DNA of 64,000 nucleotides from a virus: IMG/VR virus record IMGVR_UViG_3300046171_000267, positions 1 to 64,000 of that record; one strand, written 5' to 3'. Shown piece after piece: positions 2,248 to 54,419 of this stretch. A program made the position numbers and the translations under genes. The notes below the pieces were generated by a model. The model was not told where the DNA came from, did no database searches, and saw only the letters and a list, made by a program, of their open reading frames with translations. Every line of letters begins with the position of its first letter. The stretch's first letter is position 1.

Positions 2248-5200
2248 ATGAGCATTACGAACCTGACCATACCTTATTCCACACCATATCAAGTTTCCGC
2301 AGACGATATTGACTTGATTAAGATACGCTCATTAGAGACATCTCCTTTAACTCACGAAGACTTAGATGACAACTTTGCCAACCTTATGAATAAGGTAAAT
2401 GCACTAGTTGATATTATTGGAGGGTCGAGTGCAGCCATCTCAGTAGATGGTAGTGGTAATGTAGGTATTGGTACTACGAATCCTACAAAACCTCTACATA
2501 TATTATCGACAGTAGTTGATCAAATTGTTTTGGAAGCAAATTCAACTACCGTCGGCCCAAATATGATATTCAAGAACACTGATGGTAATCTTGCGAGAAT
2601 AAGAACTGACGATTCAGAAAATCTTCATTTTGAAAATGGTACTGTAAACACAACGAGGATGACCATAGACTCCGACGGCAACGTAGGTATTGGTACTACG
2701 AATCCTGTTAGTAAATTGACAATTTCAGAAACCGGAAACGCTGTTAATATTGACCCAGAAGGTTCTAGCGCTACATCTTATATAGGTTTTAGAGCTAATG
2801 TCTCCGCTTTTGTTGGTTATGATTACGATAATGCTTCAGCAGTACTTCAGTCGGGGGCAGGCAAAAGCTTGCGATTGAATACAGGTAATGAAACTTTTGG
2901 AAGTGGTACAGCATTAACAATTGATCCAAACGGCAACGTCGGTATTGGTACTACGACTCCTGCTAGTAATCATAAGCTTCATATAAAACATACCGAAACT
3001 GCCAACTTTAGAATTGAAAGAAATAAGGTAGGACACACAAATTCTCAAAATGGATATTTTCAGATTACTGCAGCCGAAGGAAGTAACTTAATTTATTCTA
3101 AAGACCTTGACGGGAACGCTAAGAATTTTGTAATAGACGGCGGCAACGTAGGTATTGGTACTACGAATCCTAGTGTAAATTTGGATCTTAAGAAGGCAAG
3201 TAATGATGGTGGAGCAACCTTGCGATTGAGAAGCGCAGCAGTGCTTGACGATTATAAGACTGTAGGAAGTATTGAATATTTTTCAGATGATGCTTCAACT
3301 GATTCCACAGGATTGGTTGGTTCTATTGATGTCATTAACGCTGGCACAACATGGCGTGGTGATGGCAATAATGCAGCTATGACCTTTAATTTAATTCAAG
3401 GGCTTGCGGCAACAACATCTCCTGTAGAAGCAATGCGCATCGACTCCGACGGCAACGTTGGTATTGGTACTACGAATCCTAGTTTTAAATTACATCTCAA
3501 TAAAAGTACAGGAGGTGGCAATAGTTCTAGTTATACTGGCGGTATATTAATAGAAAATACAGATACTGCTAATACTGGTGAATGTATAATAGCTTTTAAA
3601 AATGCAGGTAATGCTGGAACTGGTGCTAATTTTTGGTGGTCTGGTCTTAATCAAGACAATTACTTTGCTATCGGATATGGTACTTCTGTTACCAATGCGG
3701 TTACAAAATTAGCTATAGATACCAGCGGCAATGTAGGTATTGGTACTACGAGTCCTGACGAGGCATTTCACATTAAAGGTGATGATAAAAGAATGTTCAT
3801 CGGAAGTGATGATTATAATTTATTTTCCTTAGGAAGGCGAAGCAGTACAGAGCTAGACACGGCTTACCTCAGCATGATGGACGAGGGTGACCAGAAAGTA
3901 GTCCTAGACACAAGTGGTGATTCATATTTTAATGGCGGCAATGTAGGTATTGGTACTACGAATCCGCAGCACAAACTTGATATTTCAACAAATGATACAA
4001 CTGGGTTGAGGTTGATAAATCCTGATTCCGCAGAAGTAAATCAAAGTAATGACCCGCCAGCAATTTTATTTCAGGCAAACGGATGGGAGTTAAGAGACGA
4101 TGGTGATGGATCCAGAGCATATTCAGCTAGAATCAGAGTAAGCTCCAACTACTCAGGTGAATCAGGTCGTGGGAACACACATCCCGTGATGAATTTCGAT
4201 CTAGAGACGAATGAAAACAATCCTGATGACAATCTAAGTACCAAGATGATGATCAATGCTGATGGCAAGGTAGGTATTGGTACTACGAGTCCTAGTGCGA
4301 AGTTGGAAATAAATTCAGGCACAAATGATGCTAATTTACGGCTGGTTTCAACTGATCCGTATGTGGATATTAAAATGTCAGATAATACCACAACTGATTA
4401 TGGAGTAAGAATCAGTAACAAAGGAGATGACCTATTACTTCAAAGAGCTGGTGGCCGAGTCGGTATTGGTACTACGAGTCCTAGTGCTACCTTAGATATA
4501 CAGGGAACAGCTAAATTAAATGGTGCTGATCTGGCTACCGTTGATCAATTAGGTGGCGGAGGAATCTGGGCAGAGAATACCAGCGGTGCATATTACAACG
4601 GCAATGTCGGTATTGGTACTACGAGTCCTGATCACCCTTTGGAAATACAAGCCTCTGGAAGTAAATATGGATGTCATATACTTGATGATCAAGGAGGTAG
4701 TTTAGGAGGTCTGTTTATTTCGGAACAAGGTGCTGCTACAGATGGTCTGGAGCTTTATCTTAAGCAACCAAACGGCAATACAAAGATCAGGCTTAGTTCT
4801 GTTGATAATAATCCTACATATTTTAACAGCGGCCGAGTAGGTATTGGTACTACGGATCCTGATAGACTTATGCATCTTGCTTCTAATGCTGCGATAATTT
4901 GCATAGAAGATACCGCAGGTGCTACAGATGACAAGCGAGCGCAAATTCAGGTTGATGATGGTAAATTTGAAATCAACAGTCGAAAAGATGACAATAGCAG
5001 CAGAACTGACAATATTTTTGTAGCCGATTTAGGCACAGGCCATGTCGGTATTGGTACTACGAGTCCAATATTCACACTAGATGTAGCTAGCGATGCTACT
5101 TTAGCTTTAGGTTCTAACAGCTCAGGAACAAGAGCAGATAATACAATCAAATCATCAAGGGTGGGAGGTGTCAGATATAATAACGCTAACCCTGTAAACA

Positions 5201-6144
5201 TGATGATGCATGTCTCTGATTCAACACAGAACAAGTTGTATTTTGGTTGGGGTACAAGTTCGATGGTTTGTCCTACAAGTATTGTTTTTGGTACAGCACC
5301 AACAAACAACATATCATCAGCAAATTCCTCTAGTTACCAAAGAATGATCATTGATGGAAATGGTGATGTACTTATCAATAAAGATTTAGAAGTGGTAGGT
5401 AATGTATCAAAGGGTTCTGGAACTTTTAAGATTGATCATCCATTACCTGAGAAATCAGAAACTCATCACTTAGTTCATTCTTTTATTGAAGGCCCACAAG
5501 CTGACAATATCTATCGAGGTAAGATTGAATTGGTAGCAGGTAAAGCTGAAGTAAATATTGATGCAGTATCTGGAATGACTGAAGGAACTTTTGTTGCACT
5601 CAATCGTGACATCCAAGTGTTTACATCTAATGAAAATGACTGGGATGCCGTGCGCGGAAAAGTGGAAGGCAATAAATTAATTATTGAATGCCAAAACACT
5701 GAGTCTACAGCAACAATCTCATGGTTGGTCATAGGTGAAAGACAGGATGAGCATATTCGTGAATCCAAAATTACTGATGACAATGGTAAGCTTATTGTCG
5801 AGCCACTTAAACCTGAGCCTGAGCCTGAGTACGAGGAGGTAGAACCTGTCGTAGAAGAGGTTACAGAAGAACCAGTAGCTGAGGAAGCACCTGAGCCTCA
5901 AGCAGTCGAGGAGCCACAACCTGAGCCACAAGAGATAGCACAAGTATCCTTGGGGCAGGTAAGTTTGGGACAAGTATCTGTAGGGCAGGTAAGTTTATCG
6001 GAGTCACCTCTTGATGAAATCAAGGAAATCCGTGCAGAGGACGGTAAGGAGTATATCAGGATAGGTGATAAGGACTACGAGGTATTAGGAGAGAATGAAG
6101 ACGGATCATTGATCTTAGATGACGATGTAACCAACAACGGGTAA
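2248..6144 (+). CDS. Long tail fibre with 12 VGIGTT repeats
   Basis: A 1298-aa fibre-like protein. From about residue 73 to 940 it carries 12 copies of a module built on (D/G)GNVGIGTT(N/S)P followed by a short strand such as KLxI, a repeat typical of phage fibres and bacterial adhesins. Spacer regions between repeats differ in length and sequence and may form receptor-binding or beta-rich domains. Near residues 1185-1240 is a Glu/Pro-rich stretch and then four QVS(L/V)G-type repeats, followed by an acidic C-terminus. No intramolecular chaperone domain of the endosialidase type was recognised. The ATG at 2248 follows the recurrent motif directly. Likely role: distal host recognition, inferred from repeat type and neighbours. 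Confidence 0.75.
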   Translation: MSITNLTIPYSTPYQVSADDIDLIKIRSLETSPLTHEDLDDNFANLMNKVNALVDIIGGSSAAISVDGSGNVGIGTTNPTKPLHILSTVVDQIVLEANSTTVGPNMIFKNTDGNLARIRTDDSENLHFENGTVNTTRMTIDSDGNVGIGTTNPVSKLTISETGNAVNIDPEGSSATSYIGFRANVSAFVGYDYDNASAVLQSGAGKSLRLNTGNETFGSGTALTIDPNGNVGIGTTTPASNHKLHIKHTETANFRIERNKVGHTNSQNGYFQITAAEGSNLIYSKDLDGNAKNFVIDGGNVGIGTTNPSVNLDLKKASNDGGATLRLRSAAVLDDYKTVGSIEYFSDDASTDSTGLVGSIDVINAGTTWRGDGNNAAMTFNLIQGLAATTSPVEAMRIDSDGNVGIGTTNPSFKLHLNKSTGGGNSSSYTGGILIENTDTANTGECIIAFKNAGNAGTGANFWWSGLNQDNYFAIGYGTSVTNAVTKLAIDTSGNVGIGTTSPDEAFHIKGDDKRMFIGSDDYNLFSLGRRSSTELDTAYLSMMDEGDQKVVLDTSGDSYFNGGNVGIGTTNPQHKLDISTNDTTGLRLINPDSAEVNQSNDPPAILFQANGWELRDDGDGSRAYSARIRVSSNYSGESGRGNTHPVMNFDLETNENNPDDNLSTKMMINADGKVGIGTTSPSAKLEINSGTNDANLRLVSTDPYVDIKMSDNTTTDYGVRISNKGDDLLLQRAGGRVGIGTTSPSATLDIQGTAKLNGADLATVDQLGGGGIWAENTSGAYYNGNVGIGTTSPDHPLEIQASGSKYGCHILDDQGGSLGGLFISEQGAATDGLELYLKQPNGNTKIRLSSVDNNPTYFNSGRVGIGTTDPDRLMHLASNAAIICIEDTAGATDDKRAQIQVDDGKFEINSRKDDNSSRTDNIFVADLGTGHVGIGTTSPIFTLDVASDATLALGSNSSGTRADNTIKSSRVGGVRYNNANPVNMMMHVSDSTQNKLYFGWGTSSMVCPTSIVFGTAPTNNISSANSSSYQRMIIDGNGDVLINKDLEVVGNVSKGSGTFKIDHPLPEKSETHHLVHSFIEGPQADNIYRGKIELVAGKAEVNIDAVSGMTEGTFVALNRDIQVFTSNENDWDAVRGKVEGNKLIIECQNTESTATISWLVIGERQDEHIRESKITDDNGKLIVEPLKPEPEPEYEEVEPVVEEVTEEPVAEEAPEPQAVEEPQPEPQEIAQVSLGQVSLGQVSVGQVSLSESPLDEIKEIRAEDGKEYIRIGDKDYEVLGENEDGSLILDDDVTNNG
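2464..5061 (+). repeat. Twelve dispersed identical copies of a 15-bp coding repeat
   Basis: The core GGTATTGGTACTACG (encoding GIGTT) occurs identically 12 times inside the fibre gene, usually flanked by GTA or GTC before and AATCCT or AGTCCT after. Copies begin near 2464, 2689, 2941, 3152, 3462, 3737, 3946, 4272, 4462, 4609, 4840 and 5047. Synonymous positions inside the core do not vary, unlike the spacers, so the conservation is at DNA level as well as protein level. Confidence 0.9.
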
Positions 6145-6145
6145 G

Positions 6146-9100
6146 ATGGCTCTTTCAGCAGAGTTTATAGAGTGGTCAAAAACAGGTACCGCCAAGGATT
6201 TACTCGGTAAAGAGATTTACGACTGGAGTGTCTATGGTGGTAGCTATCCTAGCAAGACTCTGCATGACCAGCTAATATTCATTGCCTCTAGAATGGCAGG
6301 GGGCAGCGGAACTTTAAATTCAGGTTATGGTTTACATAATATCAACACTGATATGATTCCTAATATTAAGGAAATAGAGGAATCATATATAAATAGCACA
6401 AGAAGATCAACTAGGATGTCTGATTACACAGGAGAGCAAAACCTCAGTGAATATGAGGGTAACCATTATGTAGGTACAATTAAGGATGGTAAATTTACAG
6501 TTGATACGAATATGCAAAAGCAGTACGCAGATGGACGGGTATTGCCAGAAAATGCTTATTTAGCTACAGTTGTAAATGGCAAGTTTCAGCTTGATAATAG
6601 ATTGTACACAGTAGGTGAGGAGCAAATCCTGCAGACTGTTGTAGGGGATGGAGTAGAAAAACAAAAAGTTCCCTATGAATTTGTCGCTGATGACTTAGAG
6701 TTCACAGGCAAAGTCCGTTTGGGATATACAAATAAAAGTCCAATTAATTCCAATCTAGAGGTTATTGCATTAAAGGTTAAAGACGGTGATTCAACTTTCG
6801 TAGGTTATGATATGGTGATCCAGCCTGCTGACCCAATGTCCTTGATAACTACTAATGAAAGTGGTGAGACAGTAGTGGATTATACAAAGGCAGAGGATTC
6901 AGTGCTTATAGAAAATGACGGTAAAATTTTATACGGGAAGATAAGTGATTCTGTAGGTGATCAAATACAATTATATACCCAGAAAACAGGAAAAATTTCT
7001 TTTGCAGATAATATGTTTTTATGGGATGGGGAGCCTATAGGAGAGGATTCAATAGAAGAGCTTATTTTCCACGATAAAAACGACTACATCACATTGTCAT
7101 CAATTGATATTCAGGAAGACAGATACAAGGATTACAATGTAGGAGATGTAGTCCCAAAGAATGGGTGGAATGTTGAAATTACCAATGGAGACCTCGATTA
7201 CTTTTTCGAAAGTCCGAACATCTTTGAGAACCCTGAAGATTCAGCTGCTGGTGTGTGGAGGTTTAGCCTTTTACATAAATGGCATTATCTTGCAAATGAC
7301 AGAGATGGTGACGGAAACCGCCTGATATTCAAGGAGGATACTGGTTGGCTGACTGAGGTTAAAAGAGAAAGTGACGGTGCTAATTTTTTATACAGTCATA
7401 ATGATGATTCTTGGACTTACTATGATCTAACTCCAGAAGGTACTGCTAAAGTATGGGAGGCTACTGAAGACGGTAAGTGGGAGGTCAAAGAAGCGTCAAC
7501 TTCTACAAATGATAATGCTAGTTCCGATGCTAGTAATGACGCTAGTTCCGATGCTAGTTCTGTTAATACAGAAGGCTGGTTCTCACAACAGGTCGCAGAT
7601 GGCACATATACTGTTTATGATCCTGATGGGAATATATACAGCACAGGAAATTTGACTGAAGAGGAAGCAGAATACGAAATCAATGTGGGGGCAATGAGTG
7701 GCAACCAAGAAAAAGCGACAAAGACTGTTACTCCTGTGGGAGATGGTGATAACACTGGTGAAACTGATAACACTGATGGCACTGGTGACGCTGGTGATCT
7801 TACTGAGACAACAGAAGAGATAACTGATATGCAGGGTGTTTTAGATCAGTATATTGAAGACCTTGCTAGTGGAATGAGTGAAAGCGAGGCGCAAATTAAG
7901 CGAGATGATGCGATTCTAGCTATATTGCAATCTGAAGGTGTCAATCCTGAAGATGGAGAACAAACTCCCTACAGACCTTGGAATCCTATTTCAAATACAG
8001 CAGGTCAAACAATAACAGATCAGAGTGCTGCCACAGCAACAGCAGTCTCAAATGCATTGTCTTTTGCTCAAGATAATATGTCTCTTGGCATGAAGGGATT
8101 ATCTTCTGCTTGGGATGCTACTTTAGGTAAACTTGGAGTAAATAATCCATTTAAGTGGCTACAGAAAAACACAGCAGCTTATCGAGCTCTAGAGGAAAGA
8201 ATAAACTCTGCTGTAAATGCAAATGTTCTCGCAAAGATACAAGCAAAGGAGACAAATCTAGGTAACACCTTGTATGAGCTTCAACTCGACGGCTACCCCA
8301 TAATCAATCCAGAAGGTGACATTTATGATCAAACCTTCTATATGATTCAGAAGCCTTACTTGCAGGCTCCTGATGGTTCCTATTTGATTGGCGAAGACGG
8401 TAAACCTTTAGTAAATCCAGACTATAGAGAAGACTTATCTATCTACTATACAAAGGTTGGCCCTGATGGAATTGGGGGAACATCAGATGATATAACATCA
8501 GCTTTTTCTAAGTCTAACATTTTACCATTCCAGTTTAAAAGGCAGGAAGGTGAGCTAATGGATGACATAGGTTCTAAGCTTGATGCTGTCATTGAGAACA
8601 GTGTGAAGCCTACGAAGTTTTTTGATGCACAAGGGAATGAAGTAGATGCGGGTACTGAAGGTGCTATAGGTCTTAGTCGAGATGACCAAATCTTTAATCA
8701 ACAGATGCAAGCCCTGAAGGACAAAAACCTGATTAAGGGTACAGCGGGTGCGGATGGTATTTTTGGAACAGCCGACGATACACTAGATGACGCTGGCCCA
8801 GACGGCATTCTAGGCACAGAGGATGATCCTAAGTCGATCCTTGAGCAGCTTTCTGATGACATCACAACATATGAGTATGGAGATATTAATACCGCAGGTA
8901 GTAGAGATAGGCTTCAGAGTGACTACAAAAACGAGAGAAGAAGACTTGTGGATAGAAGGAATGCTTTAGAGGAATTAGGAACTTTTGAAAATATGTCTCG
9001 TAAAGCCGATGCCTACAATGCACTCGGTCAGGCTGGGCAAAATGTGATTGATACAAGAAATAATAATTTCAAGCGTTTGGCTAAGCAAAAACTGTTTGGC

Positions 9101-26272: not shown

Positions 26273-27310
26273 CTAGTGGGCGTACCCCTTAGTTGTCTCC
26301 TTGCTACTGTGACCTACAATCTTACCGATATCTTCAAGCATTACACCTGCTCGGCTAAGTCTTGTAATAAAGCTATGCCTTAAGCAGTGGAATGTCTTGT
26401 CGTATACTCCTGCCCGTTGGCAAATTCTGCCAAAGTAAACACTCATTCTTGACCTCTTGGAAGTGTCTTCGTGGATAGCTCTCTGCTCAGGGAAGCAAAA
26501 GGTTTCATCAACAACTTCTATTTCGGAAAGTACCCTGCGAAGCTTATCTCCTCCGCATAGCTCATGGTCAATTGGAATGACTACTCTTTTGTCCTTCTTC
26601 TCTGTCCACACGGTGATTGTATTGTTCGTTAATGAATCCCACTCTAGGCAACATATATCACCAAGCCTTAGTCCTGTCCAGTAGGAGAGGGCAGTAGCTT
26701 GCCTGTAGAAATAAGGTGCTGCATTAAGGACATCGAAATATTCCCTGTAAGTAAATGGCTCTCTCTGTGAGGCTTCTTTTTGTCTATGGCTCAGCAGGCT
26801 TTTGTCTATTGATACAAGTGCCATTGGGTTGCTTGAGGTAAATCCCTTTGCCATAGCATACTTGAATAGACCATTCATGGCTGTCTGCCTGAGCTTCCTG
26901 TTTGCTAGAGTCGTTTGATCTTTGCGATTGAGAAACTCGAACAGGTCTTCCTCTTTTATTCTGGTAATTGGTTTGCCTGTAGCCTTGTAGTCTTCCCCAA
27001 ATTGTTTGAAGACTGCAATGTAAGTGGTGATGGTATTCCCTGATCGGCTTAGCTTCTTGAGATGGTTGGTGTACAGCTCGAATACCTCATCATATTTAGT
27101 AAGACTGCCATGTGTAAGTTTACTGTAAATTTCCTGAGAGAGAACACCAAGCTGGGCAGCAGTCTCCAGCTTTTCAATACCGAGCTCTTTGACCATTTCC
27201 TGTGCTCGCTTGAGGGTTTTAACCTTAAGGTTGGTGCTTCTGATTGAACCATCCTGTGCGTTATAGCGTACGCTGTAGGTTCCTGACTTATCGTTTTTAA
27301 CTATCTTCAT
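26273..27310 (-). CDS. Tyrosine recombinase (integrase family), first copy
   Basis: A 345-aa site-specific recombinase. The catalytic set is complete: R215 in TGLRLGD, K238 or K239 in the EKKDKR hairpin, H308-x-x-R311 in HCLRHSF, H334 in GHSS and the nucleophile Y343 in GYAH. An N-terminal arm-binding domain (residues 1-65) and a SAM-like core-binding domain (about 75-170) precede it. It ends two residues after the catalytic Tyr, shorter than lambda-type C-termini. No tRNA fragment or arm-type repeats were found beside it, unlike the second integrase at 53.5 kb, so it may resolve genomes, act at another site, or be a recent acquisition. Confidence 0.85.
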   Translation of the reverse strand: MKIVKNDKSGTYSVRYNAQDGSIRSTNLKVKTLKRAQEMVKELGIEKLETAAQLGVLSQEIYSKLTHGSLTKYDEVFELYTNHLKKLSRSGNTITTYIAVFKQFGEDYKATGKPITRIKEEDLFEFLNRKDQTTLANRKLRQTAMNGLFKYAMAKGFTSSNPMALVSIDKSLLSHRQKEASQREPFTYREYFDVLNAAPYFYRQATALSYWTGLRLGDICCLEWDSLTNNTITVWTEKKDKRVVIPIDHELCGGDKLRRVLSEIEVVDETFCFPEQRAIHEDTSKRSRMSVYFGRICQRAGVYDKTFHCLRHSFITRLSRAGVMLEDIGKIVGHSSKETTKGYAH

Positions 27311-35202: not shown

Positions 35203-35527
35203 TGTGATTATTATGTATTTTTATTAGGTCATTAGCCTGTTTGTCTGTGGCGATGACTGATATAGATTTGTTTTTTGAGTCCCATATGACCAGTGGGCCA
35301 CATGGGATGGCTACCCCTGAGACTGATTCCCTAATAATGGCAATGCTTGCCCTGTGTTGCATCATGAATGCCTCGGATACCTCCATAGGCATCCTTTGCA
35401 TACAGTAGTGAGCGAAAGCTTCAGCCGACAGTGACTGCTTTTCTGTTGAGAGCATGAGTGTGGTCACTATCTCCAGCATTTCATCACAGGGTGTGATTGT
35501 TATGGGTATTTTTATTTCCATCTGCAT
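35189..35527 (-). CDS. Hypothetical protein, 112 aa
   Basis: A mixed alpha/beta-looking protein with Met-rich helices (MLEIVTTLMLSTEKQSLSAE, HYCMQRMPMEVSEAF) and a beta-rich tail (GPLVIWDSKNKSISVIATD). It overlaps the ligase gene by 16 bases and the Gp88-like gene by 14. No family recognised. Confidence 0.5.
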   Translation of the reverse strand: MQMEIKIPITITPCDEMLEIVTTLMLSTEKQSLSAEAFAHYCMQRMPMEVSEAFMMQHRASIAIIRESVSGVAIPCGPLVIWDSKNKSISVIATDKQANDLIKIHNNHNEDQ

Positions 35528-36651: not shown

Positions 36652-37592
36652 CTGTTTGGTTTCCTTACCTTGTAGATAACCTGAGGATATCTACCTGTTT
36701 TATCAGGGATGGGCGGAATAAGTATCTGCTGTCCCTGCATATTTGTGTAGTAGTCCGACCTAAGTGTACGGACATGGCCTATTCTGCCATTCTCTAGAGA
36801 GCGTGGGATGCTGGCATTGCCTTGCTTCTTTGCATATTCCCTGACCACCCTTGGCAAATAAACAACTCTCATCAGTCCTCCCTTATCGGGTACACTGAAT
36901 CCCTTGGACTTGAGCTTACGCTTGGTTCGCTCGTCCTTCTTGTTGATTTGTTGAGGGCGAAAATATGAGATAGAGCTGTAGGCGAACACAGCCAAGAGCA
37001 TCTTAAGTGAGCTCATGATTGTGTTACCAACAACCATAGGATCACCTAGCTCCCTAACGATATCGGAATCTTTCCACGCATGGGCAGTCTCCATGATACC
37101 ATCGTTCAATTGATCAAAGGAGTATTCCAATGGGATATTCCCGTAGCATTTACCCTTAGATGTCTTGATGGCATACATAAGAACCTCGCCCCCGTCGAAG
37201 ATGGGTACTTCCCGCTTATGCCAGTATCTGTTTAGCCAAAAGTACATAGACTCGCAGTACTGACCATCCCACTGATCCGTGAATGCTCCTGCTTCGAGCA
37301 TCTTGCGTAAGTGATCGATAATCTCATGAGTGCTACCCCTTGAGACAGAGATGTCATACACCTCGTCTGCCTCATACTGCACTCTTAGCGTCTTGGCAGG
37401 CCATTTGACCTCACCAAAGGTGCTGTCCACCTTACAGGCATTGATAGCCTGCATAGCTGACTTCTCTACAAACATAGTAGAGTGATTAGTCATCAGCCTA
37501 GCATCCAATGCCAGACTGACAGCCTCAGGCAGAATTTTTTCCATATTCCAAAGCCCCTTGGCTGATTGCATTATTTGTTCTGTTCTTGTCAT
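36648..37592 (-). CDS. Hypothetical protein, 314 aa
   Basis: The ATG at 37592 abuts a motif copy and starts MTRTEQIMQS; the longer frame to 37640 would read through that motif and is rejected. The middle region carries YWHKREVPIFDGGEVLMYAI and AVFAYSSISYFRPQQI, followed by a basic RTKRKLKSKGF. The C-terminal HVRTLRSDYYTNMQGQ, IPPIPDKTGRYPQV is Arg/Tyr-rich. It shows no convincing match to a known family, although the overall length and basic C-terminus recall AcrVA2-like phage proteins only weakly. Confidence 0.5.
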   Translation of the reverse strand: MTRTEQIMQSAKGLWNMEKILPEAVSLALDARLMTNHSTMFVEKSAMQAINACKVDSTFGEVKWPAKTLRVQYEADEVYDISVSRGSTHEIIDHLRKMLEAGAFTDQWDGQYCESMYFWLNRYWHKREVPIFDGGEVLMYAIKTSKGKCYGNIPLEYSFDQLNDGIMETAHAWKDSDIVRELGDPMVVGNTIMSSLKMLLAVFAYSSISYFRPQQINKKDERTKRKLKSKGFSVPDKGGLMRVVYLPRVVREYAKKQGNASIPRSLENGRIGHVRTLRSDYYTNMQGQQILIPPIPDKTGRYPQVIYKVRKPNR

Positions 37593-38180: not shown

Positions 38181-38476
38181 ATTTGATCCTCCATTAGTTT
38201 TGACCCTATGGTCTCGGATATTCTTATGATCGACTGTATACCCTTTTGAATTACCTCTCTGCCCGTAGACAGGTTCTCTTGATCATTCATGGGACGAATG
38301 TAGTGATTACGCCCGTGAAAGCTCTCAAAGGGGAAAGCTTCCATAGCGTCCTGTAGTTTGATTGCAAAGTTAGTCCACTCATTGATGAGAGATTCCCTTG
38401 AATTGCCGTTCATGTGAACTGCAGGCATAACAGCCTGCGCCACAAACTTTTCATGTGCTGTAAGTTCCTTACTCAT
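38177..38476 (-). CDS. Hypothetical protein, 99 aa
   Basis: A helical protein (ELTAHEKFVAQAVMPAVHMN, EWTNFAIKLQDAMEAFPFES) with a C-terminal REVIQKGIQSIIRISETIGS helix. Its ATG overlaps the end of the 32-aa membrane peptide gene by eight bases. No family recognised. Confidence 0.5.
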   Translation of the reverse strand: MSKELTAHEKFVAQAVMPAVHMNGNSRESLINEWTNFAIKLQDAMEAFPFESFHGRNHYIRPMNDQENLSTGREVIQKGIQSIIRISETIGSKLMEDQI

Positions 38477-38567
38477 CTCTCAGCATCATGTACAGGGCGA
38501 ACCCTGAGGTTAATAACACACATGACGCAAACAGCCATGTGAACCCATAAACAATTATTGTTTCCAT
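38469..38567 (-). CDS. Membrane microprotein, 32 aa
   Basis: METIIVYGFT followed by WLFASCVLLTSGFALYMML and a charged RDE end: one hydrophobic helix spans most of it (residues about 4-27). AAGGGGAAGG precedes the ATG. It could be a tiny holin or membrane anchor, but nothing in the sequence proves lysis function. The strong ribosome site and coupling to the next gene support translation. Confidence 0.5.
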   Translation of the reverse strand: METIIVYGFTWLFASCVLLTSGFALYMMLRDE

Positions 38568-38579
38568 ATCCTTCCCCTT

Positions 38580-38596
38580 CTAGTTATTTAGGTTAC
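38580..38596 (-). promoter_or_regulatory. Motif copy overlapping a gene end
   Basis: On the minus strand reads GTAACCTAAATAACTAG. The GTA ACC TAA part encodes the last two residues and stop of the 71-aa gene upstream, so the site is embedded in a coding end. It precedes the 32-aa membrane peptide by 12 bases. Confidence 0.5.
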
Positions 38597-38803
38597 ATCG
38601 TACACAAAGTCGATAGCTTTGTTCGTTCTGATCAGCTCATCGAGCTTCCTAATAGCTACATCACGATTGGCTTTGGCGTAGTCGCCATCGTCAGCCTCGG
38701 CAATGTCCTGAGCCATCTCCCCAATTTTATTGAGGAGATCAATTTTATGACTAAATAGGCAATCCTTTACCATTGCCTGTCCTTCTTTTTTATCTTCTGG
38801 CAT
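38588..38803 (-). CDS. Hypothetical protein, 71 aa
   Basis: Charged, helical protein (MPEDKKEGQAMVKDCLFSHK, AQDIAEADDGDYAKANRDVA). It is the first gene after the structured non-coding region and may depend on a promoter inside that region. No family recognised. Confidence 0.5.
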   Translation of the reverse strand: MPEDKKEGQAMVKDCLFSHKIDLLNKIGEMAQDIAEADDGDYAKANRDVAIRKLDELIRTNKAIDFVYDVT

Positions 38804-38854
38804 AATATTTTATTTTGTTGTGTTAGTGTTGGTTAAATTGTCCGTCGTTGTGTC

Positions 38855-39392
38855 CCGTCAGCCCCCTTCCCGCTGACAAGCGTAGTACTACTCCCGTATA
38901 ACCTCAGTGTACCTGAGGTAGTACTCCCGTATATAACACAACAACAATGATGAGATAAAATCTGCCTGCTTTTTGTCGAGAAGCAGGTGAAACTCGTCTT
39001 TCTGTTTGTTTGTTTGTTTGTTACCCAAAGGGTAGGGTGGTTCCTGCGAACATAAGGAACCCAAGCAAGTACGCTATGCTCCCCTTGGGATAAAGTGACG
39101 GCTCTTTGGGATGGCAGGCCTCACCCTCGTCACGGGATTGTTCGCACAGCCATCATTCTGCTTCTTTTAAAGACGAAGTCGCCTCCAGAGAGCCGAACTA
39201 TTTAGAGCTAGTTATACTCTAGGGATACTGCAGGTACACTCCTACCGAGTGTCGTAGAGGTATCCTTGTTTGCCTAGCCTCCATATGGAGCCACAAAGCG
39301 TACCTGCAGAAAGTGAAAATTGATCGGGGAGCGGTGCACCAAACAGTAGAGGCAGTCAGTGCTACGATATCGTGATAGGAAAGAGGTTCCAT
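38855..39392. ncRNA. Candidate large structured RNA (strand unknown)
   Basis: About 540 bases without a gene but packed with exact complementary pairs: GTCAGC 38857/GCTGAC 38872; AGTACTAC 38884/GTAGTACT 38918 enclosing CCTCAG/CTGAGG; CCTGCTT 38965/AAGCAGG 38981; TACCC 39022/GGGTA 39030; GGTTCC 39039/GGAACC 39056; CCCAAG 39060/CTTGGG 39084; GTGACG 39095/CGTCAC 39128; GATGGC 39110/GCCATC 39149; TAGAG 39203/CTCTA 39217; GGATAC 39223/GTATCC 39260; ACACTC 39236/GAGTGT 39247; CTGCAGGTAC 39228/GTACCTGCAG 39300; CTCCATATGGAG 39279. Two sets interleave as pseudoknots (39095-39154 and 39223-39309). Size, density and phage setting are like the GOLLD/ROOL class of ornate RNAs, but no family is claimed. 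Flanking genes are on the minus strand. Confidence 0.5.
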
Positions 39393-39394
39393 AA

Positions 39395-39733
39395 TTAGAA
39401 CCTTCCTGTTTCATAGTTATAACCTTTAACTTTTCCAATTACCTTGCCCGTCAAGTTTGACTTTCTCAAAATTGATTTAGGGCATGAATCAATTACCGTT
39501 TCAAGAGAAGCCTTATAAGGATTCAACTTGATATCATTTGAGCCGATTACATCAAGAGGGCTTGCAATCGATTGAGCTTTTTTCTTGATTGGCAATCTTT
39601 TATATTTTGCCCTTGCTTGCTCAATCTTTTCCAATCGTTCAATCTCTTTTATTGTGCTTATAGAATCATTCATTTCACTTGATGTGTTTGAATGCCAAAA
39701 TTTATTTTCCTTTTTTATTTCTCTTTTATTCAT
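39395..39733 (-). CDS. Hypothetical basic protein of cassette, 112 aa
   Basis: Last gene of a three-gene - strand cassette that ends at the structured RNA candidate. Basic, with KREIKKENKFWHSNTSSEMN and QARAKYKRLPIKKKAQSIAS. The stop lies in the hairpin AGGTTC/GAACCT at 39384-39403. It starts one base after the stop of the 163-aa gene. Base use differs from the rest of the window. No family recognised. Confidence 0.55.
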   Translation of the reverse strand: MNKREIKKENKFWHSNTSSEMNDSISTIKEIERLEKIEQARAKYKRLPIKKKAQSIASPLDVIGSNDIKLNPYKASLETVIDSCPKSILRKSNLTGKVIGKVKGYNYETGRF

Positions 39734-39734
39734 T

Positions 39735-40226
39735 TTAATTTTTTCCCTTATTCATTAAGGATTCATTCAAATCAACCCATATTCTTTCCGCTTGCTCTAA
39801 AGCCCGTTTGGCTTTTCTTCTTACTCTTGCCGATTGCCCGTTTACGGAAAGATCATATTTTTCATTTACCCAATCAAAGTCTATATTTACCCAACGCTTA
39901 TTTGAGCCGTCAAATTTTCTTGCCCGTCTCAATCCAAACCTTACAGAATCAATAATTGAGCCGTCTTTTTTCGTTTCAATTACAAGCTCTCGTAAAGTCA
40001 ATTTTGCCCTAAAGCTTTTCCTTTGAATGAAAGAGCCGTGAAATAATTTCAACGCGGGCATGTATGAAAGCCTTTGATATCTTGTTTTCCAATTACCATT
40101 TTCCTCTTGGTAATCATGAGAAGTTTGACGGGAAAGTAAAAAGCCTTGATTTTTTCTACCGTCAATATGCGATTGAGCCCGTAAATATCTAAAGCCCGTT
40201 CGTTCAACATTCTTTTTATAATTCAC
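39735..40226 (-). CDS. Hypothetical basic protein of cassette, 163 aa
   Basis: Arg/Lys-rich protein with aromatic residues (ERTGFRYLRAQSHIDGRKNQ, NWKTRYQRLSYMPALKLFHG) and a C-terminal helix VRRKAKRALEQAERIWVDLN. Charge and aromatic content would suit RNA or DNA binding. It lies 23 bases from the 217-aa gene. It has the frequent GGGCAAG/CTTGCCC words of the cassette. No known family recognised. Confidence 0.55.
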   Translation of the reverse strand: MNYKKNVERTGFRYLRAQSHIDGRKNQGFLLSRQTSHDYQEENGNWKTRYQRLSYMPALKLFHGSFIQRKSFRAKLTLRELVIETKKDGSIIDSVRFGLRRARKFDGSNKRWVNIDFDWVNEKYDLSVNGQSARVRRKAKRALEQAERIWVDLNESLMNKGKN

Positions 40227-40249
40227 TTTTTACTTTCCCGTCTTAAGTT

Positions 40250-40903
40250 TTACTTGATTGGCAAGCTCTTTTGTTTTGCTTGATTGAGCTTGTCGTTTTC
40301 TTTGTATTTTATGCCCTTTGAATCAAGAAAAGCCTTAAGTTTTGCTTGCCCTTGTAAGCCCTTTGCAATGGCTTTTTGTGCAACCTTTGATCTCTTGACG
40401 GCTTGGTTATCAGTAAGCAAAGCCCTTGAAACAATTTGAAAGCAAGGTTTTTCCTCGTGTATTACCCCGTCAATTTTCGTTTCCAATATTTTAACGCCTT
40501 TAAGGGCAAGAGTTTTTCCTAAATCTTTGCCCATTTCCTTATCACTTGCCCGTTCGTTCAAGCCCTCTTTTCTTGCAAGGGTAATCTCATTCAATTGGTC
40601 TTTAGTCAAGGGCTTGACATTTCGACGAACGGAAAACTTGCCCTTGCTTTCCGTTAAAATTTCCCCGTCCGAAATAATCCCAACATTACCGAGCCCTTCC
40701 CGTTCTGCTATTATCAAAGCTTGAAAGGTAATCGCATTAATTTTGGGCAAGCTCTTTTCAATTCTCTTTTCAAGAGCTCTTTTATTTTTCATGAATTGAG
40801 GAAAGGTAATCTTTCCGCTTTCCATCAAGGTTTTGGTTTGACCAAGTTTGGTAAGTGAACACGCGAGCGTATCACTCAATTTGTATTGAGGTGTTATTTT
40901 CAT
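40250..40903 (-). CDS. Hypothetical basic protein of cassette, 217 aa
   Basis: First gene of the leftward cassette. A basic helical protein with FPQFMKNKRALEKRIEKSLP near residue 35, LIIAEREGLGNVGIISDGEI near residue 65, KEMGKDLGKTLALKGVKILE near 118 and QGQAKLKAFLDSKGIKYKEN near 192. No catalytic motif identified. Its promoter probably lies in the 40904-41363 control region. Codon and word usage differ from neighbours, suggesting separate origin. Confidence 0.55.
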   Translation of the reverse strand: MKITPQYKLSDTLACSLTKLGQTKTLMESGKITFPQFMKNKRALEKRIEKSLPKINAITFQALIIAEREGLGNVGIISDGEILTESKGKFSVRRNVKPLTKDQLNEITLARKEGLNERASDKEMGKDLGKTLALKGVKILETKIDGVIHEEKPCFQIVSRALLTDNQAVKRSKVAQKAIAKGLQGQAKLKAFLDSKGIKYKENDKLNQAKQKSLPIK

Positions 40904-41057
40904 TGTATTGTTTTGTTATTATTTAGTAAGTACTTTTCAGTACATTGATTAATTGCGAGCCCTTGCTTTTTGCTAATGGCTCTTGAAAGTTTTTACTAGT
41001 CTCTAGGCTTTGCCCTTTCTTGGTTGGGATGGTTGCAATCTCTCAAATCATGAGATG

Positions 41058-41088
41058 CAAAAAGATCAAGAGCCGTTGGGCTTTGATC
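41058..41088 (-). terminator. Intrinsic terminator/attenuator for leftward RNA
   Basis: Arms GATCAA-x-AGCC (41064-41074) and GGCTTTGATC (41079-41088) form a ten-pair stem with a GTTG loop. Read on the minus strand the stem is followed by TTTTT (41063-41059). Because no leftward gene lies just upstream, it may end a short leader RNA or attenuate the cassette transcript. Confidence 0.5.
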
Positions 41089-41167
41089 GAGTTGAATATA
41101 TGTAAATGAAGATTTGATACATAGGATGAATTTTAATTGTTGCGTACCAATGCTTTACGAAACAAGT

Positions 41168-41191
41168 GTAACCTAACTAAGATTAGGTAAC
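41168..41191. promoter_or_regulatory. Palindromic motif copy in the control region
   Basis: GTAACCTAA and TTAGGTAAC face each other across six bases (CTAAGA), a near-perfect inverted repeat of the motif half-site. It lies two bases before the G-runs and could bind a dimeric repressor or activator. Confidence 0.55.
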
Positions 41192-41192
41192 A

Positions 41193-41218
41193 GGGGGGCG
41201 AAGGGGGGGGAGGGGGGG
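41193..41218 (+). other. G-run cluster, possible G-quadruplex
   Basis: Runs of six, eight and seven G separated by CGAA and A. Such a sequence can fold into a G-quadruplex on the + strand or an R-loop when transcribed. Homopolymers of this kind are also error-prone in sequencing. Confidence 0.5.
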
Positions 41219-41324
41219 TCATTATTCTGTATTATATGTACCTTTTCTCAACTTTCTGGCATCCAAAACACTTCTAGAACGCCTATTCCAGCCCCATACA
41301 CCCCCCTAAAAAGGCTTTGGGGAG

Positions 41325-41360
41325 TTGACGCAGGGGTAAACACCTAGTAAACTAGGTAAC
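41325..41360 (+). promoter_or_regulatory. Promoter with palindromic motif before the 1076-aa gene
   Basis: TTGACG (41325-41330), 17 bases, TAAACT (41348-41353). The second element is inside CCTAGTAAACTAGGTAAC (41343-41360), where ACCTAGT and ACTAGGT form a perfect inverted repeat around AA. The ATG at 41364 is three bases away, again without a Shine-Dalgarno sequence. The overlap of promoter and palindrome fits repression by a dimer, or a promoter type in which the motif is the core. Confidence 0.6.
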
Positions 41361-41363
41361 ATT

Positions 41364-44300
41364 ATGTCACGAGATCGATTTTATATTCCCGTAGTTAGCG
41401 ATGTAATCCGTCTTTTTACTGGCGGTGGTGGTAGCAGCACACCTAGCACCCCAGACATACCAACAACTACTGTTAACAGGGCAGATTATTTAAATACTTT
41501 AGACCCAATTGTCATTACTGACACAAATAGCAGTCCACTTACTACTAATTTAGTAAATGTTCCGATAGTAACGGGTGGTAACTTGGCTCCACTGGACACG
41601 AATCAGCAGATTATGCTGATTACTGACCCGATGAGGAATGCTCAGATAAATGCATCGATTATAGGTGAAATTAATCGAGCCAATAGTCTTGAGGATTCAG
41701 TTGCTGGAATAGATAGTCACCCACTTATTCAGCAATTGAGGGATGGCGAGATTACAGCAGAGGACATTACTGGGGAAAGTGCAGAAGCGGGGAATCAAAT
41801 TGAGGCTACTCCGCTAAGTGCTAGTTTTCAGTATGAAATTAATGGCAATCCTGTCTCTAAGGAGACCTATGATGCTTATATTAATCCTGATGGGTCATCT
41901 AAGGTTCCTGAGGGCTTTCTTGATGGAATGTTTCCGACCAATGAGGGTACTGGTATTGAATTTGGCACTGAGAATAATACTACTCAACCGACTGTACCAG
42001 TAGTCACTGACACAAATCAGACAGTTTTTTATGATATTAATCAGACTAACCCTGATTTTGACAACAATGTAACATCTCCGTTCACTTCAAATTTAAATCC
42101 AGCCGATTACGACTTGGATATGAGTAGGGACTCAGTGTTAGATGATTACACTGGTAGTGATTACAACTTTACGATGCCTATGCCTGATTTTACTGACATC
42201 AGTGTTAGGGATCAGATGATTGAGGCAATTAGGAGTTTTGAAGATGATAATTCATCGAAACCAAAGGAGCCTATTATTTCTAATAAGGTAAAGAATGCAG
42301 TCAAGGGATTGGTTCCTATAATAAGAGAAGCAGCTAGTGGTGATATTATAGGAGCGCTCAAGGAGGGGAAGAAGTTAATTAAGGGGGAGCAAGACAAGGA
42401 GAAGAAAGCCAAAGACTCGGATACTCCGACTAAGACAGCAGAGGAGATACAGGCGGAAAAGGATGAGGCTGATTATCAGAAGGCATTAGATATACTTGGC
42501 AGACCTGATCGTGCGGAAGCGCTGGCACAATCGCTGGCCAATGCAGGAATTATGGTTGATCCTCGAACAGTCCTTGAGGGTGATGTGCTTTTTTCTGAGG
42601 ATGAATTTTTTACTCTTCATAAGATAATACAGGAGGAGAAGAGGAAAAACGGGGAGTTCATGCAGAGCTGGGAAGACTTTTATAAGTCATGGAGTGAGGT
42701 TGGCAAGATTGAGGAGTATGTACATACGGATGTTAGTTTTGATACCACAGGAAATCTGGAAGAGATAATTGATCCGATTAGGCAAAAGGTAATGATGGCA
42801 AAAATGATGGGCAAGAATTTGCTCGTTGTTTCGGATGAGGAGTATGATCGAATGTTGTCTGAGAATCCTGATTATGCACAAACTGCATACTTATCAGAAA
42901 CTGACTTTATGCAGTATGCTGGGGCAGATCAGTATTTTGGGGAAGGAGCCACTTCAGAAGGTACGGAGCCTGAGAAAGAGGGCTACATGAGAAGTTATGA
43001 TGTCCTTAAGGCTATACGGGATGGTACATATGTTCATCCTGATCTTGAGTACGGGCCAGAATCAAAGGAAGACCCATTTTATAGTATTTCTATTCCAAAT
43101 GCCGATACTAGTGGGCCAAGTGATGTAAGTAACATTTTGTTACCAGCTACTGCTGTAAATACGGCTCAAGATATAAAGCCCAGTGACCGAATTGATCAGT
43201 ACTGGGAAAGTAGGGGGATGACTGAGGATGACTTTGGGAATCCTTTGTATGTAGAGGTAGACGGTCAAAAGGTAAGAAACCCTAACTTTGCTGCACCAAT
43301 AAATGCCAATGATCTGGCACACCTGTATGATTTTAATGTCAATGATCCTGAGCATATCCAGACATTGTTCGATCCGCAGTCTATGAACTTTGCGGATGAA
43401 AGTATATTTCCTCAGGGAACAAATCCTACCCCGCTAAATGTATATAAGCCTAATGAGGATGCATCTAGTGGGATGGTGGATCGCTATGGTGCAGATATGA
43501 GGTTTAAGGACACAAATAGAGAGCGTTTTGATAGATATTATCGCTCACTACCTGTGTCATCTTACTCTTCTTACGGAGAGCCTGCGGGGGCACGGAAAGC
43601 AGGAAACTTCATGTCTCCATTAATGGATAGGCTGGGTGATCCTTTTTCAATCGTAGGGGATAGTGTGGGTTATGCTCTTGATACTGCAGCTAAGCCCTTT
43701 AATGCTTTGGGTGAGAAGCTTGGTGGGGCAGGGTTTATTCCGAATCTTATGGGAGCAGGTTTATCGGGAGCAGGTAACTTTGTTTCCAGTCTTGGGCAAA
43801 GAACAGATGATTTTATCGGAAACACAATCCCCGACTTTTTCTTTCAGGATGTACCGCAAACATTCAGAGGTGCATATCAGACGTATCAGGGTGATCCTGC
43901 AGGTAGAGTAAACCTTAGGCAAGGTGCTACGGGTATGCTTGATGGATTAGGGCAAACAGTAATGGTTCCAATAGGTGCAGGAATGGATGGAGTACGATCA
44001 GTAGTACAGCCTTTTAGCAGACCTGAATCAGATAATCCATTGGATAATATGCGGTTCCCAACAGTGCCTCAACAAGGAGTTTCGCCACTCACTGAAATCA
44101 TGAGAGACAAGTATTTCCCGCAAGATGGAGGTTCTTCTTCTAGTAGTTCGTATATACCTACAGGTGATTGGGTAGTAGAGGACGGCATGATGCGTAACCC
44201 TAGTGCATACAATAGTCAAGATGGTGCAAATAGTAGCTCTGGTAGAAGAGGTGCTAAATTTGGAGGAGTATCAGATCGTCTTTCAGATAAATATTCTAAG

Positions 44301-44594
44301 AACGGAATTAATCTTAATTCTCCAGACGGCAGGGCAGCCTTTGAGTCTGCTTACGGGAAGGAAGCCTTGGATGATGCTCTTAGGGAAGTTGGATTAGGGC
44401 ATCTTGCAGGAACAGGAGTAGCATTAGAAGGAGAAGAGCCTGACTTATTTAAAGTTGTAGATAAAGAAAGCAACCTAAGGACACCTTATGGAGGTAAGAC
44501 AATGCCATCTCCTGTAGATAAGCTTGGAGAAACCATTGCCGCAGCAGTAAAGGACGATGATGAAGAAGATGGAGCCTTTGATAAGGCACTTTAA
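41364..44594 (+). CDS. Putative virion protein, 1076 aa
   Basis: Large acidic protein starting MSRDRFYIPVVSDVIRLFTG GGGSS-type linker; the first 280 residues are Thr/Asn/Asp-rich and probably extended. Residues about 310-380 are charged helices. From about residue 755 to 875 there are amphipathic stretches with Gly (DSVGYALDTAAKPFNALGEK, GAGLSGAGNFVSSLGQRTDD) like membrane-interacting parts of ejection proteins. The C-terminus is acidic. No known family recognised. It heads a + strand island between leftward early genes and has its own promoter, so its timing may differ from the other structural genes. Confidence 0.55.
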   Translation: MSRDRFYIPVVSDVIRLFTGGGGSSTPSTPDIPTTTVNRADYLNTLDPIVITDTNSSPLTTNLVNVPIVTGGNLAPLDTNQQIMLITDPMRNAQINASIIGEINRANSLEDSVAGIDSHPLIQQLRDGEITAEDITGESAEAGNQIEATPLSASFQYEINGNPVSKETYDAYINPDGSSKVPEGFLDGMFPTNEGTGIEFGTENNTTQPTVPVVTDTNQTVFYDINQTNPDFDNNVTSPFTSNLNPADYDLDMSRDSVLDDYTGSDYNFTMPMPDFTDISVRDQMIEAIRSFEDDNSSKPKEPIISNKVKNAVKGLVPIIREAASGDIIGALKEGKKLIKGEQDKEKKAKDSDTPTKTAEEIQAEKDEADYQKALDILGRPDRAEALAQSLANAGIMVDPRTVLEGDVLFSEDEFFTLHKIIQEEKRKNGEFMQSWEDFYKSWSEVGKIEEYVHTDVSFDTTGNLEEIIDPIRQKVMMAKMMGKNLLVVSDEEYDRMLSENPDYAQTAYLSETDFMQYAGADQYFGEGATSEGTEPEKEGYMRSYDVLKAIRDGTYVHPDLEYGPESKEDPFYSISIPNADTSGPSDVSNILLPATAVNTAQDIKPSDRIDQYWESRGMTEDDFGNPLYVEVDGQKVRNPNFAAPINANDLAHLYDFNVNDPEHIQTLFDPQSMNFADESIFPQGTNPTPLNVYKPNEDASSGMVDRYGADMRFKDTNRERFDRYYRSLPVSSYSSYGEPAGARKAGNFMSPLMDRLGDPFSIVGDSVGYALDTAAKPFNALGEKLGGAGFIPNLMGAGLSGAGNFVSSLGQRTDDFIGNTIPDFFFQDVPQTFRGAYQTYQGDPAGRVNLRQGATGMLDGLGQTVMVPIGAGMDGVRSVVQPFSRPESDNPLDNMRFPTVPQQGVSPLTEIMRDKYFPQDGGSSSSSSYIPTGDWVVEDGMMRNPSAYNSQDGANSSSGRRGAKFGGVSDRLSDKYSKNGINLNSPDGRAAFESAYGKEALDDALREVGLGHLAGTGVALEGEEPDLFKVVDKESNLRTPYGGKTMPSPVDKLGETIAAAVKDDDEEDGAFDKAL

Positions 44595-53462: not shown

Positions 53463-54419
53463 TTATACTGGAGTTATACTAAAGTATTCCTTAGCTTCTG
53501 ACTCACTAACATTGGATTCACAGTAATTATGATGAAAAGTTCTATGGTTAGTGTGACCTGTAAATCGCATACATTTTTCCTGCCCCAAAACCCAAAAGCC
53601 GTAGGAACAAAAACTGTGCCTCATGGCATCATGCCCCAAGGCTCCACAATGTCTGTCTCTAGCAAGTCTAAATGAATTGTAGGTGCATGGTTTTACCTTG
53701 AAATTCTGAAGCCAGACTTTGAGATTGCAAGGTAATCCACTCAAGGTTCTTGTTCTTCTTCCTTTAGCAGAAGAGCCTGAAATAATTATTTTATCATCGC
53801 TAAAGGTTAATTCACGACACGCCTCGTAAGGGCGAAGTCCCGCAAAAAGCTGTAGGCAGACTCGTAATTTGTGTTGGGATGGGATGCGGTTTAAAATTTC
53901 TTGAGTTTTTTCAACGGAAAGAATTGGTATTTCTTTTTCATCCACAAATATTTTTCCAAGCTTAATTCCGTGAAATTTATCCTGTGGACACCATCCTTTT
54001 TCCCCGCACCAGTTGAGAAAGCTGGCAACATCATTTCGATACCCCGATCTCGTGTGAGTATTGTTTTCTTTTTCAGCAAACGATTTAACATCATGGCGCT
54101 CAATTTTCTCAACAAGCGTGTTTCCAATAAATTGATTGAACTGATTTAGACGCTGTCCATATGTTTTAATCGTCGCACGACGCATATTTCTTTTTTCGCA
54201 GTCTTGTAAATATTCTTCTATAGCTGGGGTTATACCGCAGTGATTACCTGAATATTTTGGGGTGAGCAATCCATTGGAAAAAGTATTTAGCTCTTCATCA
54301 ATATGCTCCTGAGCTTTTTTCTTTGTTGTAAAGAATTTGCGATAAATTCTGGTGTTTTGTGAGCGCAAAGTGACGCAAAATCTTCTTTTTGTCTTATCGT
54401 GGGTAATTTTATGTTTCAT
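53463..54419 (-). CDS. int: Tyrosine recombinase (phage integrase), second copy
   Basis: A 318-aa integrase. Visible catalytic set: R196 in FAGLRPYEA, K219 in SSAKGRRTR, D264-x-x-R267 in HDAMRHSFCSYGF (the HxxR His is Asp, as in some subfamilies), H289 in TGHTNH and nucleophile Y299 in HHNYCES. The N-terminal arm-binding region is about residues 1-60 and the core-binding domain about 65-160. Its start lies five bases from the first arm-type repeat and 150 bases from the tRNA-derived core site, so it is the integrase for that attP. Confidence 0.85.
   Translation of the reverse strand: MKHKITHDKTKRRFCVTLRSQNTRIYRKFFTTKKKAQEHIDEELNTFSNGLLTPKYSGNHCGITPAIEEYLQDCEKRNMRRATIKTYGQRLNQFNQFIGNTLVEKIERHDVKSFAEKENNTHTRSGYRNDVASFLNWCGEKGWCPQDKFHGIKLGKIFVDEKEIPILSVEKTQEILNRIPSQHKLRVCLQLFAGLRPYEACRELTFSDDKIIISGSSAKGRRTRTLSGLPCNLKVWLQNFKVKPCTYNSFRLARDRHCGALGHDAMRHSFCSYGFWVLGQEKCMRFTGHTNHRTFHHNYCESNVSESEAKEYFSITPV

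Follow-up and report, generated by a model that had tools for sequence, protein, structure and literature searches.

Why should three small genes for basic proteins lie directly beside a structured noncoding region in a phage genome, and do the proteins and the RNA belong together? The original prediction was that they do, as an RNA-protein module of possibly defensive, regulatory or mobile character. The locus lies in a 64,000-nucleotide stretch of DNA (the window) taken from a virus record of 67,697 bases (a 67.7-kb phage contig), which encodes a terminase, portal-position and integrase genes, a DnaB-type helicase and an SNF2-like helicase. The cassette genes come first among the leftward genes, and a rightward late gene (41364-44594) diverges on the other side. 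The cassette and its downstream flank contain the following features.

40250..40903, minus strand: gene A, 217 aa, pI 9.9, an ORFan that opens the lead early unit
39735..40226, minus strand: gene B, 163 aa, GTG start, pI 10.5, an Arg/Lys-rich ORFan
39395..39733, minus strand: gene C, 112 aa, pI 9.8, a basic ORFan
39384..39403, minus strand: weakly terminator-like 8-bp stem-loop at the cassette's 3' end, AGGTTCTAATTATGGAACCT
38804..39346, minus strand: structured noncoding region, outside the exchanged unit and 99% conserved in a sister phage

The open reading frames and their coordinates were as predicted, with three basic genes running in one direction and ending at the RNA region, where the noncoding stretch 38804-39394 adjoins them. 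The statement that the proteins belong to no recognised family was also borne out, as Pfam, PADLOC, NCBIfam and PDB sequences yielded nothing credible. Direct homologue searches of IMG/VR with the 217- and 163-aa proteins and searches of GenBank phages with all three proteins gave nothing credible, and PHROGs returned a sub-marginal match for the 112-aa protein (E=0.0013) to phrog_6987, whose function is not assigned. A possible role in defence, as a known anti-phage or toxin-antitoxin system, found no backing in the defence-system models of PADLOC, which matched none of the window proteins and gave one weak ZorC match (E=0.009) for gene A of the relative G035. Family searches likewise found no counter-defence or host-takeover homologue of the cassette proteins. 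AlphaFold modelling, suggested as a check on the prediction, was run for the 163- and 217-aa proteins, but the models were unusable (mean pLDDT 45.5 and 48.2, respectively); a predicted helical N-terminal hairpin (residues 11-56) was the sole part of the 217-aa protein modelled with some confidence. A terminase profile run against MAGs matched four contigs. One belongs to a Verrucomicrobia bin and the other three to a single 'archaeon' bin; all are probably binned viral contigs, and do not pin down the host.

Scanning with the neighbouring proteins retrieved IMGVR_UViG_3300048026_001411, a contig from a sister phage, together with a fragment from a second sister. The sister is ~99.4% identical to the window on both sides of the cassette, and differs from it in one block.

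39347..41128, minus strand: exchanged segment, entirely replaced in the sister (L002 about 6230-8173)

The exchanged segment takes in all three genes and their 5' leader, and its edges are sharp, with 0 differences between the two phages over 41129-42622 and 2 over 38394-39346. The sister carries a replacement of about 1.9 kb, not an empty insertion site, and this encodes two other proteins of 271 and 262 aa; gene C is missing from the sister cassette and from the relative G030. The 271-aa gene A of the sister has a C-terminal SAP nucleic-acid-binding domain (Pfam, E=1.4e-5), and Pfam detected no SAP domain in the 217-aa protein of the window. The suggestion that the three genes probably entered together agrees with these findings, in that they form one foreign-looking unit that is replaced as a block. 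An independent sister contig, 3300048555_000331 (L004), begins at window position 41203, so that it is cut off beside the variable cassette, which is what failure of assembly at varying alleles would produce. The sister also has about 250 bp extra at window 35510-35523, beside an early gene, which suggests another small site of exchange or insertion. Tight SNP clusters between the otherwise near-identical sisters (window 42878-42926 and 37383-37428) are compatible with short gene-conversion tracts.

Upstream of gene A, a control region and leader contain three elements.

41167..41192, minus strand: operator-like palindrome TGTTACCTAATCTTAGTTAGGTTACA, with a C-tract before it, conserved ahead of the lead genes family-wide
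41064..41088, minus strand: cassette-specific leader hairpin, with a hairpin of unrelated sequence at the same place in the sister
41033..41063, minus strand: 31-bp leader island TTTTTGCATCTCATGATTTGAGAGATTGCAA, a hairpin that the sisters share unchanged amid diverged sequence

The palindrome (consensus TGTNACCTAATN5TTAGGTNACA) is identical or near-identical whatever the cassette allele. A scan of IMG/VR with the palindrome alone gave 19 loci, all with an adjacent C-tract, and every locus with enough downstream sequence starts with a gene A, joined at some loci by an Arg/Lys-rich gene B; A and B pairs new to this analysis are among them. The C-tract and palindrome serve as a sequence-only marker for the exchangeable lead early cassette across the phage family. 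A scan for sigma-70 promoters performed no better than chance. A second palindrome, ACCTAGTAAACTAGGT (window 41342-41357), lies shortly before the start of the late gene and resembles the one ahead of the lead cassette, and a common regulator of the early and late units is possible.

A terminase scan yielded 56 relatives, and in every one with a readable locus the control region leads straight into the phage's own lead gene A, which points away from the late genes. In several relatives, an Arg/Lys-rich gene B comes next after gene A. The 163-aa protein is 31-38% identical to the product of the 159-aa second lead gene of the distant relative G030, which occupies the same place (E=4e-8 in a small database). 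The 262-aa protein of the sister matches gene B of G031 (E=2e-7) and of G025 (E=3e-4), again in a small database, and is 43% identical to B of G027, while the 271-aa protein of the sister is 36-42% identical to its match in G027. When the 163-aa protein was compared with the other B types, only 2 of 300 shuffles scored as high using a hand-chosen core, and an unselected profile gave no signal; kinship of this B type with the type-II B genes is at best suggestive. The B-gene profile retrieved nothing from bacterial and archaeal genomes. A common fold for the A genes was considered and rejected, as no significant profile links extended beyond sub-groups. The type-II cassette of G027 (a SAP gene A and a gene B, L099:45-801 and 996-1565) contains apparent frameshifts, seemingly through assembly error or decay.

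The distribution of alleles among these relatives bears directly on exchange. Over 5 kb of late flank, G012 and G035 are 98.3% identical and L179 and G008 99.9%, with about 90% identity between the pairs. The lead genes cross the flank pairs, with G012 matching L179 (88%) and G035 matching G008 (84%), and cross-allele comparisons of the lead genes gave no match in three of four cases and just 29 bases in the fourth. Two lineages thus each hold both unrelated alleles. Such a four-gamete pattern cannot arise without recombination at the locus, and it demonstrates allele exchange in natural populations. With the window and its sister included, cassette exchange is seen in three independent lineages, the evidence consisting of three sister or lineage pairs.

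The locus is best explained as a set of fast-diverging, exchangeable genes A and B, here with C, which by position would form the first transcription unit of the early genes. Comparison of the sequences establishes the lead position, the conserved upstream element, the replacement of alleles, the allele families that span lineages and the type-specific nucleotide signature described below. For the function of this lead early cassette, a part in host takeover or counter-defence is moderately probable. The unit would be transcribed first, by the host polymerase, a timing suggested by its position and the conserved element, and its small basic proteins may bind nucleic acid or host complexes. The products would work in the first minutes of infection, blunting host defence or redirecting host machinery, and the arms race between host and phage would favour the swapping of alleles, possibly by homologous recombination via the conserved leader and downstream sequence.

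Lytic phages carry hypervariable host-takeover or counter-defence genes that are expressed first, such as gene 0.3 and its neighbours in the early region of T7. Like these, the cassette is first in the early unit by position, consists of small basic ORFans, and differs between close relatives, where it is swapped as a block. Unlike the T7-type genes, the cassette proteins have no homology to characterised inhibitors and their activity is putative, long allele types are common to deep lineages, and there is a strong cassette-specific nucleotide signature, for which a host-takeover role does not account. Little on hypervariable early loci came up in the open-access papers searched. In the collection searched, the phage family is without cultured relatives, and the C-tract and palindrome marker supplies a list of ORFans as candidate agents of host takeover or counter-defence.

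The main rival, which we regard as unlikely, is an immunity or superinfection-exclusion module, where the swapped genes decide which related phages co-infect. Immunity regions typically show clean swaps of alleles between near-identical phages, and the locus resembles lambdoid immunity mosaicism in having wholly different alleles at one position in near-identical phages with flanks in common. The basic proteins and the SAP domain of one allele fit this explanation, as do the tyrosine integrase genes, given which the phage may be temperate. In lambdoid phages, however, the operators change with the repressor, whereas the upstream palindrome is constant here while the genes change, and neither Pfam nor PHROGs found a helix-turn-helix or repressor family in the cassette. 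The phage has two tyrosine-integrase-like genes, at window 26273-27310 and 53463-54419, the latter matching integrases chiefly in their N-terminal and central portions.

Joint action of the three proteins with the structured RNA beside them, whether in defence, regulation or a mobile ribonucleoprotein, now appears quite unlikely. The genes do adjoin the RNA in the same direction, and in one clade (G012/G035/G016/G007/L172) a long structured region follows gene A and is partly allele-linked. Against this, the sister retains an RNA that is 99% identical over 39027-39346 and has all three proteins replaced by a wholly different cassette; as the RNA is constant while the cassette changes, the two are separable in the window, an outcome of the kind that the original prediction itself named as counting against it. 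In G030, G025 and G031, other early genes follow directly after A and B, with no long noncoding region between. The noncoding stretch (38804-39394) folds with z=-2.7 on the transcript strand and -3.7 on the opposite strand, it matched no Rfam family at the gathering score or a relaxed threshold (GOLLD, ROOL and other large RNAs included), and no defence family was found for the proteins. The downstream structured RNA is best explained as an element separate from the cassette. Within its RNA region, the sister has a 78-nt insert (L002:8494-8571, corresponding to window 39022-39027) that is absent from the window and ends in a GGGGG..CCCCC hairpin.

The preferred reading, an exchangeable lead early cassette, leaves the composition of these genes to be considered. 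The GGGCAAG/CTTGCCC and CCCGT words to which the original prediction drew attention are truly enriched relative to the rest of the window, from which the expected counts were taken: GCCC/GGGC occurs 25 times in the cassette against 6.3 expected, AAGGGC 11 against 0.7, GGGCAA 12 against 0.8, ACGGGC 7 against 0.3 and CCCGTC 6 against 0.4. As a specific motif, they did not hold up. Sense-strand GGGC is spread over all three reading frames (3/7/7) and is therefore not a protein effect. Repeated 6-mers exceeded synonymous-codon shuffles with z=8.2, 6.6 and 4.9 in the three genes, compared with -0.7 to 3.9 for 21 genes elsewhere in the phage, but the internal word excess dropped to z=1.1-2.0 against dinucleotide-preserving shuffles, indicating that the 'vocabulary' comes mostly from an unusual dinucleotide make-up. 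The composition is itself exceptional, as a composition analysis proposed with the prediction confirmed: 0 of 109 same-length phage windows were as deviant in dinucleotide and tetranucleotide distance, and the lead cassette is the most deviant segment also in the sister, G012 and G027. Codon usage is aberrant too, with CAA making up 100% of Gln codons versus 47%, and GAA at 76% versus 49%; compared with the remainder of its own phage, each of the 12 lead cassettes favours CAA over CAG. The cassette was also considered as a structured RNA in its own right (z=-3.3 in the window and -5.2 in the sister), a candidate rejected as control genes reach -4.5.

The signature tracks the type of cassette, the distance between the sister and G027 cassettes being 0.069, while each lies 0.20-0.22 from its own genome. 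The cassette proteins of these two phages are 36-46% identical, with synonymous sites saturated, and identical residues are encoded by identical codons in 50 of 85 cases, where codon usage alone predicts 45.7. With no excess above usage, the shared signature is not left over from recent common descent. It may reflect either active maintenance or cassettes that mostly live in another genomic setting, and the puzzle is that a phage-foreign signature has been kept long enough to saturate synonymous sites. A reading in which a cassette product or a cognate host factor recognises a private dialect of leader and genes, independent of reading frame, as an actively maintained self-recognition code of exchangeable early cassettes, seems very improbable.

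The aberrant codon usage and composition could also mark recent foreign cargo, brought by a mobile element or by mere chance into a site that tolerates insertions, and lacking a locus-specific role. We consider this very unlikely: it is largely refuted by the recurrence of A and B families at one locus across the phage family, the sister site holds a replacement, two type-II cassettes keep the same signature at saturated synonymous sites, and no transposase or endonuclease, such as a mobile intron, homing element or transposon would encode, was detected in the cassette, where Pfam and PHROGs gave no nuclease match above the cut-off. A replication-origin module, with basic initiators binding words inside their own genes, would suit the divergent promoter position, the basic proteins and a word enrichment that reaches into the leader, yet is highly improbable in view of words that are mostly dinucleotide bias, no iteron-like repeat, no initiator homology in the cassette proteins and a conserved replicative helicase gene located outside the cassette.

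Large RNAs of phages offer a comparison for the noncoding DNA at these loci. ICP1 produces an ORF-less transcript of ~0.8-1 kb that has been compared with GOLLD and ROOL, and one prophage GOLLD is reported to have been dispensable for phage production (PMC7567579). The window region is similar in being a large structured ORF-less region of a phage genome, near the cassette, and differs in having no Rfam match, no tRNA genes nearby and a location behind the lead early genes. In the G012/G035/G016/G007/L172 clade, 0.9-1.3 kb of noncoding DNA follows the lead gene A (L083:846-2090, L112:10290-11480, L089 about 4060-5305 on the minus strand, and L172 about 4650-5600). This region has no Rfam match; it is structured, with conserved cores and an intrinsic terminator at its end. 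The common core is GGTGTTCAAGTG..GGGCGAACGATAA and the 3' core TGTTCA..TCGCAACGCAACC, and a pairing that is GUUC/GAAC in G012 and G035 is GUCC/GGAC in G016, a compensatory change. In the gene-proximal part, G012 has blocks in common with G016 and not with its own sister G035; the first part of the noncoding DNA thus varies with the gene allele, and a functional link is possible in that clade. The clade region is a candidate for a new large phage RNA family.
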